Positions 39,506 to 45,443 of a stretch of 64,000 nucleotides of DNA are shown piece by piece. The position numbers and the translations under genes are program-made. The DNA is from Candidatus Nitrosopumilus limneticus. Lineage in GTDB: Archaea; Thermoproteota; Nitrososphaeria; Nitrososphaerales; Nitrosopumilaceae. The notes beneath the pieces were generated by a model. It searched no databases. It saw only the letters and a program-made list of their open reading frames with translations, and was not told the DNA's origin. Position 1 is the first letter of the stretch; each line of letters starts with the position of its first letter. The stretch lies in assembly GCA_022117465.1 (NCBI GenBank), contig JAHCGZ010000006.1, positions 1 to 64,000 of the forward strand, read 5' to 3'.

Positions 39506-39589
39506 CCAAGCTCTTGTACTCGACAAATTGGTTATAAACCTTATTTGATTTTTAGGTATTTTTTATTTAATTACCAGTATCATGAACGA

Positions 39590-39685
39590 TCAGATCAAAA
39601 GTCCAATATCAACTCCTGTTAAAATTCCAGCATGAAATCCTAAAAGAGTGGTCGCTTTTGGTATACCATTTAATTTTATTGCCAT
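39590..39685 (-). CDS. Possible small membrane-associated protein, 31 aa
   Basis: ATG 39685 to TGA 39590 encodes MAIKLNGIPKATTLLGFHAGILTGVDIGLLI, a plausible amphipathic or membrane segment. If the TGA were read through or is a sequencing error, seven more hydrophobic residues (SFMILVI) and K would follow, making a better membrane helix. It lies between the Rieske gene and the stalk candidate. Given the many indels in this window, the truncation may be artificial. Low confidence. Confidence 0.35.
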   Translation of the reverse strand: MAIKLNGIPKATTLLGFHAGILTGVDIGLLI

Positions 39686-39691
39686 TAATAA

Positions 39692-40660
39692 TTATCTTCG
39701 TCTAGCAATAATTGTAATTTGTAATGCAACTATTAGACCAATAGATGCTATAATTGGAAATAATAATGAATTTAGCTGAGATGATGCCTCCTCAATAGAT
39801 TTAACAGAGGAAGAAATACTTTTTGTATTTTCATTAATGTTTTTACTAGCAGTTGATAAGGTATCATCAAATCTTGAAATATCAGATTTTAAAATATTTA
39901 ATTCAGAAGAGGTTTCATCTAAAGCAGCATTAAGTTTACTGATTTGTTTATTGATTCCACCAAGATCTTGAGTTAAAACATGAGTTGCTGCAAACCCTTT
40001 TGATGTAACACCATCATTAAAGACTGCAATTTGAAAAACATGTGTTCCTTCTTGTGAAGGAGCATAATCAAAATAATAAACACCACCATACAATGTCTTA
40101 AAAGAATCTTTTAATGGTATTGATGAGCCGTCAGGCAAATGAAGTAAGGAATTTCCAAGTAGTGTAGTTGGGTCATTTCCTATGTTTAAGCCGTCACGAG
40201 TCGTTTGAATAAATACTCGAAATGATTGATTTAATGCGCCTGATTCTGGTGCAAAGACAGCAGTCTCAATTTGTCGTTCTACTGCAACAGAAATAAATTC
40301 TGTTGTTGATGAAAATTTAATATCAATTTTTTTTGATAATCCATCTTGTTTTGTACTTAATACCTCAACAACATAAGTCCCATATGGAGTACCTGAAGAT
40401 GGTTCAGGCCAAGTTAATAGTTGGTGATTAAAACTTCCATCGCTGTCTGTTTGAATTTGTTCAAATTTTGTAATTGATTCATCTGGGGCAAATAATCTTA
40501 AAATAAGTTCCTCTCCAGGTAGACCTTTTCCATAAACCTGCAAAGTATGTTCAGGAGAATACACCTTACTATTTGTAGAAATTTCTAATTCTGAAAAAGA
40601 GTATTGAATTGGAATTAACAAAAATACAAAAACAATAGATAGTAAAACAAATAATTTCAT
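39692..40660 (-). CDS. Exported protein with coiled coil and C-terminal anchor, candidate S-layer stalk
   Basis: A 322-aa protein with four parts. There is a signal peptide (1-23, ending SFSE), about 200 residues of two beta-rich domains, a heptad coiled coil (about 233-295, with INKQISKLNAALDETSSELNIL), and a single membrane helix (about 296-318) ending in ARRR. That is the plan of SlaB, the membrane stalk that holds the SlaA lattice in Sulfolobales. It lies directly downstream of the S-layer gene on the same strand, separated by 115 bases with a T-rich terminator. No sequence homology to SlaB is claimed; the match is architectural and contextual. Confidence 0.6.
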   Translation of the reverse strand: MKLFVLLSIVFVFLLIPIQYSFSELEISTNSKVYSPEHTLQVYGKGLPGEELILRLFAPDESITKFEQIQTDSDGSFNHQLLTWPEPSSGTPYGTYVVEVLSTKQDGLSKKIDIKFSSTTEFISVAVERQIETAVFAPESGALNQSFRVFIQTTRDGLNIGNDPTTLLGNSLLHLPDGSSIPLKDSFKTLYGGVYYFDYAPSQEGTHVFQIAVFNDGVTSKGFAATHVLTQDLGGINKQISKLNAALDETSSELNILKSDISRFDDTLSTASKNINENTKSISSSVKSIEEASSQLNSLLFPIIASIGLIVALQITIIARRR

Positions 40661-40736
40661 TTTAGTTTATTTCAAGGGTTCTCCTAGATATTACTTTTGA
40701 AGAAAAAAATTGTGCATAACTTTCGTTAAGAGGTAT

Positions 40737-40756
40737 TAAAAAAAAGAAAAAAAGGG
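40737..40756 (-). terminator. T-rich terminator of the S-layer gene
   Basis: On the minus strand, CCCTTTTTTTCTTTTTTTT follows the S-layer stop by about 20 bases. A long U-run is a strong archaeal termination signal and fits a highly expressed gene. Readthrough to the stalk candidate is possible but not shown. Confidence 0.6.
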
Positions 40757-40775
40757 AAATTAGAACTAGTTATTC

Positions 40776-43700
40776 TTACTGTACGACTATTGTTGTACTG
40801 ACTGGTGGTGATAATGCCGTTGGATTATCTACTGATTCCCATACGAATGCAGTTGCTGTGTAGCTACCACTTTCGGTTGGAATCCATGATAATGCAGGGC
40901 TGAATGATTGACCAGCTGATAGTGAACCTGTAATCCATGCGAGTGAGACTGTTACACCGTTACCATCCTGAATTTGTACCAAGTATGCGAATGATTGCTC
41001 TCTATCTTGACCATTTGCTAATTCAGCAGTGATTTGTACCTGTTGGTCAACGCTAACAGAGTTTAAGCTGTTACCGAATGCATCAACGGTTCTCAAGTTA
41101 GCAGCTGGTGCTCTCTCGAGTGGTGGTACAAGTGTGCCAATTAGTGATGTGGCTGTGATATCAAGTTCATCTGCAGTAGTATATGGTTCAGGTAATGTAT
41201 TGTCCTCATATTCTGTGGTGACTGTGTCACCTTCTGCTACTCTGAGTCTGTGACCAGAAGAGTCGTCAGATACTGTAAAGAATACAGTTCCTTCGAAAAT
41301 TCCAGTAGCCTCATTAGTTTCAGATACAGTTAAGTCAATACCTCCGGCATCGGAGTCAGACCAAGCGTCAACTTTAAAGTTGTCGATTGCCTCTGGGTTT
41401 AAGTTCATATCTGCGTCAATAATTCTTACTACACCTGTTCCGCTTGCTGGATAGCTTGCCTCGAGCCATTGTACCTCTGCGATATTCCATCTAATTAATG
41501 CTGAACCTACAACTGTTTCATCCTCTGAGAATTCAAAGGAGATAGTTAGTCCGTCATTGTTAGTTGCTGCAATGTTACCACTTGTTGGGCCTGAGCCTGT
41601 AGTTAGTGAACTTGCAGTTCCGGTAATTTCATTACCAGAAGTACCGGTTGAAGTGTCGCCGTCTGCATCAAATGCAAATCCTTTGAGAGTTACCTCACCA
41701 ATGAAAATGCCTGTGTCAGCTCCTGATTCGATTAGTTTGTAGTTGGTTAATTGGTTACCTCTTGTAGAGACCTTTAGAGGATCTGTACTACTGTTACCAA
41801 TATCGTCAATTAAAAGACTATCGTAATTGTGATCAGGGGCGACAACTGTGATGTAGACTTTGTCAGTCCATGAGTATACTTTTTGATCGAGTTCTATTGT
41901 TGCACCAAAGTTAGAAGTATAAACTGTGAGTTTAATATCTTCACCCTCTTGTCCAACATAGTTAGCTCCGGCTGGACCAAAGTCGGTATATTCCAAGTCG
42001 ATTTTCTCGCCTCTATCCAATTTGTTTGTACCAAGGGTGTTAGGAATTTCAATGACTACTTGGAAGATTCCAGTAGAGTCACCTGTTTCTCTAAAGCTGC
42101 TTGGTTCTGGATCAATGTTTGCAATGTCAGATATTGCTGACTTTGCTCCCAATGTTCCAGTTGCTGCGTCAGAATCCCACTCAATCAAATCGAGTGTGTA
42201 GGATTGTGCGCCATCATTGTCTAGGTCGAGGTCTGGCTCAATTAAGGTTAAGATCATATCTGAACCAATAATGTAGACAGATTTATCGGATTGTAATACA
42301 CCGTTTCTAAGGTCGAAAGTTGCAGAGTCAGTTACTGATTGAGCTTGACCTGAAGAATCACTTAAGTCATTGTATGTTACGGTGACAATGTCACCTTGTA
42401 AGACACAACCTTGACCGCCTGTAAAGGTGGATGGACAATTATTGTTCACACCATCGTTATAGTCGATAGTTATGTCAGACTCAAACACACCAGAACTTGG
42501 TGATGTTTCCTTCATTGGAGATGTAGATGAACCGACAGTTGAAACTGTTGTTGAGTTAGATCCTCTTACGAGTTTAACTACTACAGTTGTATCTGCGATT
42601 GTATCTGCACCAGATGCTGATACGTTATAATCTGCGTCAGTTACTCTGACGTGGACTACAACATCACCTTGAGCTAATGCGTTCTCATTCGTTCCAGCGT
42701 TAAGATTATTTGCACTTGCATGCAATGGGAATCTTTGATCAGCAGTTGCTGATGGAGTTACGTTACCAAATGGCACTGGATATACAGTTCTATCAAAAGA
42801 TACGGATCCTGTGTTTGCGCGAACGCTTGCACCTGAACCTACTTCAATAGTTTCACCAGAAGCATCTCTAAAGTCAAGATAATTGATTTCGAGATTCTTT
42901 TCCAGTTGTACTGCGTATATTATCTGTACCTGCGGTTGTGGATGTGCCATCATCAGTGTCACAGAATCTAGATGGAACTTGGAAGGCTTCCAGTAACATA
43001 CCAGAATTCTTCCAGTCTCAACTAATGTGAAACCTGAGGCTTGTAAACCGTCGGTAATACCATCTGTGACTATAAGAGCTTCAGATGCAACGGAAGCGGC
43101 ACATGTGTCGTCACCAACATTCACCCATGTCATATCGTCAAATGTGACAGATACTACAAAGTCTGAACCGTTGTTTCCAACTGTGTCGTTTGCCGTTGTG
43201 ATATATACATCAATCAAATCGGAATCGGCGTTAAGGTCTTGATCTTCAAGGGTTACAGTTACAGTATCACCTATCTTGTAGGTTGCAATATCAGTTGAAA
43301 CAATACCACTGTGTGTAGGTGCTGCTAATTGATCTGCAATTTGTGTTTCAATACCGTCTGCGCCCAAATCTAAGTAATTTACTCTTACAGAATCTTCATC
43401 AGTCAAGTCTTCGTGGACAATAATTTTGATATCTCTATCATGTGTTTTGATATTGTCAAATACTGTTTTGCTATCAACGTTGAGTTGATTTAACATTACA
43501 TATTCAACAGTACCGGTAAAGATACCTGTATTGTCACCACTTTCTTTTAACAACATGTGATAAATTGAGTTATTGGCACGCTCTGATGTGGTATCACCAT
43601 CACCAAAGGATAAAATGTCAACATAGAATTCATCGCCTGCGCTTACATTGGCAGAAGCTGTTGTAAAGTTAATTACAACAACGTCAGTTCCTGTGTAGCC

Positions 43701-45443
43701 GCTTGATGCTGTTACATTCAATCTGTACAAACCTATTGCCCCTAAAGTTGCATCTGAACCATCTTCTAATGTTTGAAACGGAATTACATCTCCAGCGATG
43801 TTTGCTGTAGAATTGTCATAGATTTTGATTGCAGTTACTTCAGAGGTAGTAAGTGAATGGATGTTATAACTGATGTAGTTATATCCGTAAGAACCGTTTG
43901 CAGTACTATTTGCATAGATACCTGCTAAGTATGTTGCTACGGTATATCCTGGTCTAATAGAGACATTGTCTCCATGATCATCAATAACTGCAGTTACACT
44001 AGCAATTTTGCTAAATGCATCTACAGTTGTTAAACCCATGCCATATGTTGTAACAATACTATCACGTCCTGCTGTAATTGTTGTATCCTCACCTAATGTA
44101 AGTGGTGATCCAATAATTATTGTAGGTACTTTCGTTGTAGTACTTGCATTGAATGTTTGTTTTTTAAGTGTGTTTGTGTTAAAGTCTTGATCTGTTAAAG
44201 ATATTGTTACCTTTTCACCAGAGTTCCATGTGTCGCCAACTGAAGCATCATCCATGTCAAGGGTACCAAAGAAATTTGATACAGTAAATGACTGTGGAGT
44301 GTCGTTATAATCGATAGTTGCTGTTGTACCTCTTTTTGCACTTGAATTAACTTGAAGATTTGCATCATCAATGTCATCAGTGTTTGAGAATATTCCAGTG
44401 TTATCACCAGTTTCATAGAAATATAGGTAATAATCTGAAACAACGTCGTCTGCCGTATTATCGTTTGATAATACATTAGTTCCGACACTTAAGGTATCAT
44501 AGTCAATTATCAGTTTTCCGTTGTTATCAAAGCCTGCAGTAGTTCTTGATTGTGCTTCGAACATTACTGTGCTGACTCCGTTACCGAGTACGGTGCCGTT
44601 GCTCCACATCATATCTGAAGTGGATGCGGTACCTTCGGCGTTAACAAAGAAAATTATAACGTCTTCGTCTGTTGGGTCGATGTTTAGTGCTGTATCAGTT
44701 ATTGTTAAGTGAAGTTCTGAGCCTTGTGAGGCTGAATTTCTATCCATGGTTAAACCTGCATAGTTATCCAAATCTGCACTTTTATAAATTAATGACACTT
44801 TTTCATCGGTACCTGGTTGCTCTAGTACAACATCGAAATCACCTTGGGCAAGACTAAATGTTTGGATAAATGGCCATAGGTTGTATCCAGGAAAGGGCTC
44901 TGCAATAGTGCTATTAAATATTTGACCCTTAAATCCTGAGACACCAGAAGACAAAATTGGTGCGTTATCTATTACACCAGTTTGTGGTGCTACCGTGTTG
45001 TTAGTAAATATGGCTGTAGAAAATACAGTTAGACCAGAAGTGAATGAGGTTTTCTCAACACCAAAGGCTAGAGTTCCTGCACCTTCAGTAGTAGCTGCTG
45101 TGTGAGTATTTTCCACTGCGTTAATGCCTTCATAATCACCAAAGTATCCATACCAGTAACCGTCTGCACCTTGTGCCAATCTTAATTGATTATTATCAAC
45201 TTTGACTGTTGGTTCAGATACGACTTCATTAGTTTTAACTCTATTTGGATCTTTTACGATTACTTCAACTACACTTGGTCCACCAAAGTAATTTTCGAAT
45301 GTTGCGTTTTCTGCGGAGACATAAAGTTGGCCTGCGGCTGCGGCTTCTGGGACCATTGAAGGTACACCAATAACCATACCACCGGCTAACATTAATGTCA
45401 TTAGCGTAAGACTAGTTAATTTACGTCCTATTTCGTTATTCAT
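40776..45443 (-). CDS. S-layer protein
   Basis: A 1555-aa secreted protein with a signal peptide (residues 1-37, ending VPEAAAAG) and many repeated beta-sandwich domains rich in Asp, Thr, Gly and Val. A recurring edge motif such as ETGDNTGIF or ESGDNTGIF marks each domain. High acidity suggests calcium binding. It corresponds to the major S-layer protein of Nitrosopumilus-type AOA. No C-terminal anchor is present. Residues near 810-845 read as an unusual segment between a pair of compensating indels (about 43015 and 42918); the alternative frame there reads like the rest. It has a TATA element and an inverted repeat upstream. Confidence 0.92.
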   Translation of the reverse strand: MNNEIGRKLTSLTLMTLMLAGGMVIGVPSMVPEAAAAGQLYVSAENATFENYFGGPSVVEVIVKDPNRVKTNEVVSEPTVKVDNNQLRLAQGADGYWYGYFGDYEGINAVENTHTAATTEGAGTLAFGVEKTSFTSGLTVFSTAIFTNNTVAPQTGVIDNAPILSSGVSGFKGQIFNSTIAEPFPGYNLWPFIQTFSLAQGDFDVVLEQPGTDEKVSLIYKSADLDNYAGLTMDRNSASQGSELHLTITDTALNIDPTDEDVIIFFVNAEGTASTSDMMWSNGTVLGNGVSTVMFEAQSRTTAGFDNNGKLIIDYDTLSVGTNVLSNDNTADDVVSDYYLYFYETGDNTGIFSNTDDIDDANLQVNSSAKRGTTATIDYNDTPQSFTVSNFFGTLDMDDASVGDTWNSGEKVTISLTDQDFNTNTLKKQTFNASTTTKVPTIIIGSPLTLGEDTTITAGRDSIVTTYGMGLTTVDAFSKIASVTAVIDDHGDNVSIRPGYTVATYLAGIYANSTANGSYGYNYISYNIHSLTTSEVTAIKIYDNSTANIAGDVIPFQTLEDGSDATLGAIGLYRLNVTASSGYTGTDVVVINFTTASANVSAGDEFYVDILSFGDGDTTSERANNSIYHMLLKESGDNTGIFTGTVEYVMLNQLNVDSKTVFDNIKTHDRDIKIIVHEDLTDEDSVRVNYLDLGADGIETQIADQLAAPTHSGIVSTDIATYKIGDTVTVTLEDQDLNADSDLIDVYITTANDTVGNNGSDFVVSVTFDDMTWVNVGDDTCAASVASEALIVTDGITDGLQASGFTLVETGRILVCYWKPSKFHLDSVTLMMAHPQPQVQIIYAVQLEKNLEINYLDFRDASGETIEVGSGASVRANTGSVSFDRTVYPVPFGNVTPSATADQRFPLHASANNLNAGTNENALAQGDVVVHVRVTDADYNVSASGADTIADTTVVVKLVRGSNSTTVSTVGSSTSPMKETSPSSGVFESDITIDYNDGVNNNCPSTFTGGQGCVLQGDIVTVTYNDLSDSSGQAQSVTDSATFDLRNGVLQSDKSVYIIGSDMILTLIEPDLDLDNDGAQSYTLDLIEWDSDAATGTLGAKSAISDIANIDPEPSSFRETGDSTGIFQVVIEIPNTLGTNKLDRGEKIDLEYTDFGPAGANYVGQEGEDIKLTVYTSNFGATIELDQKVYSWTDKVYITVVAPDHNYDSLLIDDIGNSSTDPLKVSTRGNQLTNYKLIESGADTGIFIGEVTLKGFAFDADGDTSTGTSGNEITGTASSLTTGSGPTSGNIAATNNDGLTISFEFSEDETVVGSALIRWNIAEVQWLEASYPASGTGVVRIIDADMNLNPEAIDNFKVDAWSDSDAGGIDLTVSETNEATGIFEGTVFFTVSDDSSGHRLRVAEGDTVTTEYEDNTLPEPYTTADELDITATSLIGTLVPPLERAPAANLRTVDAFGNSLNSVSVDQQVQITAELANGQDREQSFAYLVQIQDGNGVTVSLAWITGSLSAGQSFSPALSWIPTESGSYTATAFVWESVDNPTALSPPVSTTIVVQ

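Follow-up and report, generated by a model that had tools for sequence, protein, structure and literature searches.

Organization of the slaB locus

The window, i.e. the whole stretch of 64,000 nucleotides of Candidatus Nitrosopumilus limneticus DNA that was analysed, contains on its minus strand a slaB-like gene (39692-40660) which starts with ATG and which, on the basis of its reading frame, homology and modelled structure, codes for a putative SlaB-type S-layer stalk or anchor of 322 amino acids. The gene of the S-layer canopy protein (SLP, 1555 amino acids, 40776-45443, minus strand), a homologue of NmSLP (PDB 8c8k), ends 115 bp upstream of slaB; the shared strand and the distance given in the initial annotation were exact. 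On its 3' side slaB is directly followed by the genes of a Rieske protein, a cytochrome b and a plastocyanin-like protein.

The product begins with a putative signal peptide (about residues 1-23, 40592-40660), assigned on sequence and model alone from its hydrophobic character and a predicted helix at residues 2-14. It continues with a beta-sandwich domain homologous to D1 of SlaB (about residues 26-117, 40310-40585), a second beta-sandwich domain which the profile aligned with D3 of SlaB (residues 131-229, 39974-40270), a heptad coiled coil (residues 233-299, 39764-39964) and a C-terminal membrane helix (residues 300-319, 39704-39763) followed by RRR, all of them encoded on the minus strand. 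The AlphaFold2 model obtained from a 53-sequence alignment (mean pLDDT 85.4) is composed of helix 2-14, the beta domains 26-116 and 131-229, where the pLDDT is mostly 85-95, and helix 233-321; the same plan was found with a 25-sequence alignment (pLDDT 74.8). The heptad register runs from L233 to L299 through 20 a/d positions without a break, and the model has a single helix here. None of 20,000 permutations equalled the observed hydropathy contrast (P<5e-5), and the conservation contrast among 25 relatives was significant as well (P=0.0001). The membrane helix was recognised from sequence, conservation and model, and LLFPIIASIGLIVALQITIIARRR at the C-terminus is near-invariant within the genus. 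The beta-rich domains, the coiled coil and the single membrane helix with its basic end, all proposed at first from the letters of the DNA, were thus recovered in the predicted structure.

The SlaB proteins of relatives are 58-84% identical to the window protein, and the gene was found in 45 of 60 genomes from the genus, among them all eight that consist of a single contig. Phage records gave no match by tblastn.

Relationship to SlaB proteins

The best family match of the window protein was the NCBIfam SlaB model NF040788 (S-lay_SlaB_Mtsph, E 2.3e-9), which also matched 51 of the 53 aligned homologues. The score of 36.7 bits did not reach the equivalog cut-off of 700 bits; since S. acidocaldarius also falls below this cut-off, the result excludes the narrow Metallosphaera-type equivalog and not the SlaB family. 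Among the PDB chains S. acidocaldarius SlaB was the best phmmer match (E 0.0027), and with a profile of 17 sequences from ammonia-oxidising archaea (AOA) the same protein (8qox_B) came out on top at 1.4e-8. In a Foldseek search of 350,542 PDB chains SlaB ranked first for both models (1.8e-7 and 3.3e-10), with low TM-scores (0.26), which are expected for a flexible rod but are not decisive. Over D1, hhalign gave 99.3% with SlaB of the Sulfolobales and 99.5% with SlaB of other Thermoproteota. The SlaB likeness suggested in the initial annotation therefore emerged from sequence, profile and structure comparisons alike. The strongest sequence match falls on the N-terminal beta domain, a type of domain that further AOA surface proteins contain as well, and coiled-coil likeness alone is weak evidence for SlaB identity; in the window's genome it is the only protein found to combine a match to the SlaB N-domain with a coiled coil and transmembrane segment.

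The profile alignment to 8qox_B is colinear over D1, D3 and the coiled coil, a second stretch extends into the membrane helix, and D2 is skipped. A short form of SlaB with this build is known from S. solfataricus and S. islandicus (PMC6911244), and the 322 amino acid protein, with its two beta domains, is of the same form. It shares with S. acidocaldarius SlaB (PDB 8qox chain B) and NF040788 the signal peptide (putative in the window protein), the N-terminal beta-sandwich domains, the coiled coil and one C-terminal membrane helix with a basic end, and the S. acidocaldarius gene is likewise directly downstream of the canopy gene. It differs in the number of beta domains (two instead of three), in the shorter coiled coil (about 66 residues) and in sequence (13-25% identity). 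SlaB of the Sulfolobales is heavily glycosylated, whereas the window protein has one N-glycosylation sequon only, and this difference counts against the tethering stalk which we favour below.

Membership in the tetrabrachion family was rejected: the 3-4 heptad register fits throughout, there is no right-handed undecad (11-residue) coil as in tetrabrachion, and the gene architecture differs, as tetrabrachion has arms and stalk in one gene product while the AOA canopy and stalk are separate genes. A PEFG-CTERM sorted surface protein was rejected as well; the window protein has no PEFG motif ahead of its C-terminal helix, while other proteins of the genome do (L003). Coiled-coil matches in Pfam and the PDB (kinetochore, spike, Lpp) were disregarded as generic.

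The remark in the initial annotation that no stalk had been named for this type of S-layer is outdated. According to the accessible text of von Kuegelgen et al. 2024 (PMC11153153), a SlaB homologue with a C-terminal transmembrane segment is present in N. maritimus and SlaB homologues in most Nitrososphaerota, and slaB was scored and mapped across AOA in an mBio survey of 2024 (PMC11559005); a SlaB homologue in AOA has been on record since 2024 and is not new. The N. maritimus homologue, for which that text gives no locus tag, adjacency, spacer or protease, is most likely the same orthologue as the window protein. Two further candidates for the published SlaB were rejected, namely a secreted protein of about 720 amino acids (L208, L209), which ends without coiled coil or transmembrane segment, and two proteins of 268 and 259 amino acids (L003), which have one SlaB-type beta domain and a PEFG end. 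The 720-residue protein is a multi-beta-domain Nitrosopumilus protein encoded near an MTA phosphorylase-like gene, and the SlaB model gives its N-domain about the same score as the stalk.

Association of the SLP and slaB genes

SLP was found directly upstream of slaB in all 20 Nitrosopumilus loci tested and, at the loci where this could be read, in two outer families. Within the family the arrangement holds for 10 of 13 genera; outside Nitrosopumilus, 15 loci from 12 genera were read, and 12 of these loci have it. The two genes adjoin in 63 of the 73 named loci that have at least 300 bp of upstream sequence; N. maritimus is not among the named contigs. The pair seen in the window is therefore conserved across AOA genomes. 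In three genera slaB is not beside SLP (L110, L113, L116), which speaks against the tethering stalk, and two of these still have the order slaB, S8 subtilase, Rieske. One locus (L114, G165:C1:1042528-1044971) has two identical, inverted reading frames of 369 amino acids for the SLP C-terminus beside slaB, either an inverted repeat or an assembly artefact, and one bin (G366) has two SLP-slaB-S8-Rieske cassettes (L117, L118), from duplication or mixed strains.

Across the Sulfolobales and further Thermoproteota, most SlaB homologues are encoded directly behind a canopy-sized gene (1089-1444 amino acids), and six of these canopy proteins (L217, L218, L219, L220, L223, L226) are homologous to the window SLP (E 7e-16 to 2e-57). 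Twelve AOA genomes, mostly of other families, were compared: five contained SLP and full-length SlaB, five contained neither, and in two (G319, G393) paralogues or a contig-edge copy alone were seen. SLP and SlaB thus co-occur or are jointly missing in outer AOA. The family f3 genomes without both are 2.8-3.4 Mb in size and agree with the published finding that Nitrosocosmicus lacks slp and slaB (PMC11559005).

The spacer and the dosage of SlaB

The 115 bp spacer between SLP and slaB (40661-40775) is strongly conserved over the 20 Nitrosopumilus loci. T-runs on the coding strand just past the SLP stop (40738-40756) are the likely SLP terminator, and a AGTAATATCTAGGAG block (40681-40695), conserved in the Nitrosopumilus spacers about 30 bp ahead of the slaB start, is a possible slaB promoter. 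SLP transcripts would be partly terminated in the T-runs, slaB may possibly have a separate weak promoter, and the T-runs could hold the dosage of the stalk low. When the 48 genes of the window were ranked by C-ending codons, SLP was fifth and slaB 27th; the ordinary codon usage of slaB compared with SLP agrees with a low dosage. Both the spacer and the codon data fit the published findings that SlaB of N. maritimus is much scarcer than NmSLP (PMC11153153) and that slaA transcripts exceed slaB transcripts in the Sulfolobales (PMC5744192).

Anchoring of the S-layer

In our view the 322 amino acid protein is most likely a SlaB-type stalk which tethers the Nitrosopumilus S-layer. The initial annotation had assigned it this anchoring role, of which the identity as a SlaB-type stalk was borne out, while the anchoring would follow by homology from Sulfolobus, where SlaB is the stalk (PMC6911244). 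After secretion the C-terminal helix would remain in the membrane and the coiled coil of roughly nine heptads would stand as the stalk, probably as a trimer by analogy with Sulfolobus. The two N-terminal beta-sandwich domains would reach up and bind the membrane-facing C-terminal domain of SLP, and this contact would tether the canopy and set its distance from the membrane. The terminator-like T-run and the ordinary codon usage would hold SlaB well below the SLP level.

The candidate docking domain is the CARDB-like domain at the C-terminus of SLP (40779-41123, minus strand), delimited by conservation and profile comparison and assigned as CARDB-like by Pfam. When genera within the family are compared, residues 1301-1555 of SLP show 78-95% identity and the rest of the protein 18-74%. 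The last domain aligns to NmSLP residues 1622-1734, which is the unresolved tenth domain; the published NmSLP model ends at residue 1616, and the tenth domain was proposed to aid anchoring (PMC11153153). A profile of the last SLP domain matched eleven proteins encoded beside SlaB in other Thermoproteota, in each case at the very C-terminal end; one of them is a Sulfolobales SlaA-type protein (L214, E 1e-12). SlaA of S. acidocaldarius may touch SlaB with its C-terminal D6 (PMC10903991). Because of the conserved C-terminus, the shared terminal domain and the parallel with SlaA D6, docking of SlaB via the last SLP domain is our leading guess, a suggestion drawn from sequence comparison for a domain type that is widespread. 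A claim that the CARDB-like match proves SlaA and SLP to be homologous was held back, since CARDB domains are common, homologues of the last SLP domain occur in other AOA proteins, and the Metallosphaera-type canopy (L213) gave no score in the same profile search. A secreted "mini-SLP" of 398 amino acids (L229, G000:C1:328236-329330), present in other AOA genomes too, consists of the last SLP domains alone (38% identity), lies away from slaB and could share the SLP docking site.

The same domain is at the centre of a different explanation, in which it is chiefly the flexible tenth domain of SLP itself that would hold the protein, by binding lipid heads, glycans or other envelope molecules, with SlaB as a minor, sub-stoichiometric spacer or post. 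It was proposed from the low SlaB abundance and the unresolved domain, as stated in the accessible text of PMC11153153, where no description of a stalk density was found. The SLP C-terminus being the best conserved part of the protein, and the mini-SLP being encoded apart from slaB although it has these terminal domains as well, speak for it too. In Sulfolobus, SlaB and the canopy protein stand in a ratio of 1:2. The amount reported for SlaB of N. maritimus is far below that of the canopy protein (PMC11153153), and with such scarcity SlaB cannot hold every subunit at 1:2. On the other hand, SLP and SlaB are jointly absent in outer AOA and adjacent across a phylum, which is not required of a dispensable spacer. 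We therefore regard this explanation as serious but rather unlikely; it is partly compatible with the SlaB stalk.

The S8 subtilase gene behind slaB

In 69 of the 80 named loci, and in 18 of the 20 Nitrosopumilus loci, the gene directly 3' of slaB codes for an S8 subtilase (the order is seen, among others, in L034-L052 and L107-L126), at a distance of 9-32 bp in the Nitrosopumilus loci. These proteins are roughly 1140-1960 amino acids long, secreted and provided with a C-terminal membrane helix; of five that were examined, all have the Asp and His motifs and four have the Ser motif GTSMAAP. The order SLP-slaB-S8-Rieske-cytb reaches family f2, and in family f3 there is no S8 beside slaB. The 165 bp between slaB and the Rieske gene of the window (39527-39691) aligns to the S8 3' end and downstream DNA of a relative (L043), with a relic of both at 39527-39640 (minus strand); the local score was 85 against a shuffled maximum of 41. 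The sole S8 gene found in the window's genome codes for a different protein of 682 amino acids elsewhere. The lineage of the window has lost the slaB-linked subtilase and a relic is left. Five other named contigs have slaB beside SLP without S8 (L130, L134, L135, L136, L195).

Membrane-anchored S08A proteases were reported in AOA (PMC6790972), and our literature text search found no paper which connects the S-layer genes of AOA with a subtilase. One parallel, tetrabrachion of Staphylothermus marinus, is a coiled-coil surface stalk with the subtilisin-type protease STABLE (PMC5744192), whereas the AOA protease is linked by gene order in relatives alone and is missing in the window. The secondary stalk M164_1049 of S. 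islandicus is a SlaB-like anchor, and its homologue has been shown to be a protease of the cell surface (PMC6712394); M164_1049 differs in being thermopsin-like, with stalk and protease within one protein.

STABLE sitting on its stalk, together with the frequency of S8 behind slaB, sometimes kept where SLP is not adjacent, would also suit a SlaB that stands in the membrane mainly to receive or dock the protease, with S-layer anchoring secondary. This is very unlikely in view of the window lineage and the five contigs, which keep SLP-slaB without S8, of family f3 and of the SlaB-canopy pairs in other Thermoproteota, which have no adjoining S8. Equally improbable is a biogenesis factor capturing newly secreted SLP at growth sites instead of a permanent anchor, which the low SlaB level (PMC11153153) and ordinary slaB codon usage would allow, but Sulfolobus SlaB is structural and dispensable for SlaA assembly in vitro (PMC6911244).

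Returning to SlaB as the tethering stalk, we tentatively extend it to an S-layer module in which SLP canopy, SlaB stalk and membrane-anchored subtilase are encoded in one cluster. The protease, on or under the stalk, would trim or remodel the coat in the way suggested for tetrabrachion-bound STABLE; the CARDB-like domain of SLP would be an ancestral SlaB-docking domain shared with SlaA-type canopies across Thermoproteota; and the window lineage would have lost the protease. Taken jointly, these propositions are plausible and somewhat less than probable. To our knowledge SlaA is viewed as having no homologues outside the Sulfolobales, and the ancestral docking domain runs against that view.

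Significance

To what was known of SlaB in AOA the present analysis adds the position of slaB, its synteny throughout the family, the form with two beta domains, the conservation of the spacer, a candidate domain for docking and the protease gene linked to slaB. Apparently not reported before are the S8 subtilase behind slaB with its loss in the window lineage, the conserved SLP C-terminus with a CARDB-like domain common to other SlaB-adjacent canopies, and the conserved SLP-slaB spacer with its T-runs. With one stalk gene beside SLP, a candidate docking domain and a protease partner, the question of anchoring in AOA becomes a set of specific pairwise tests. The S-layer of AOA is believed to enrich ammonium at the membrane, and the way in which it is held and the width of the space beneath it bear on the marine nitrogen cycle.
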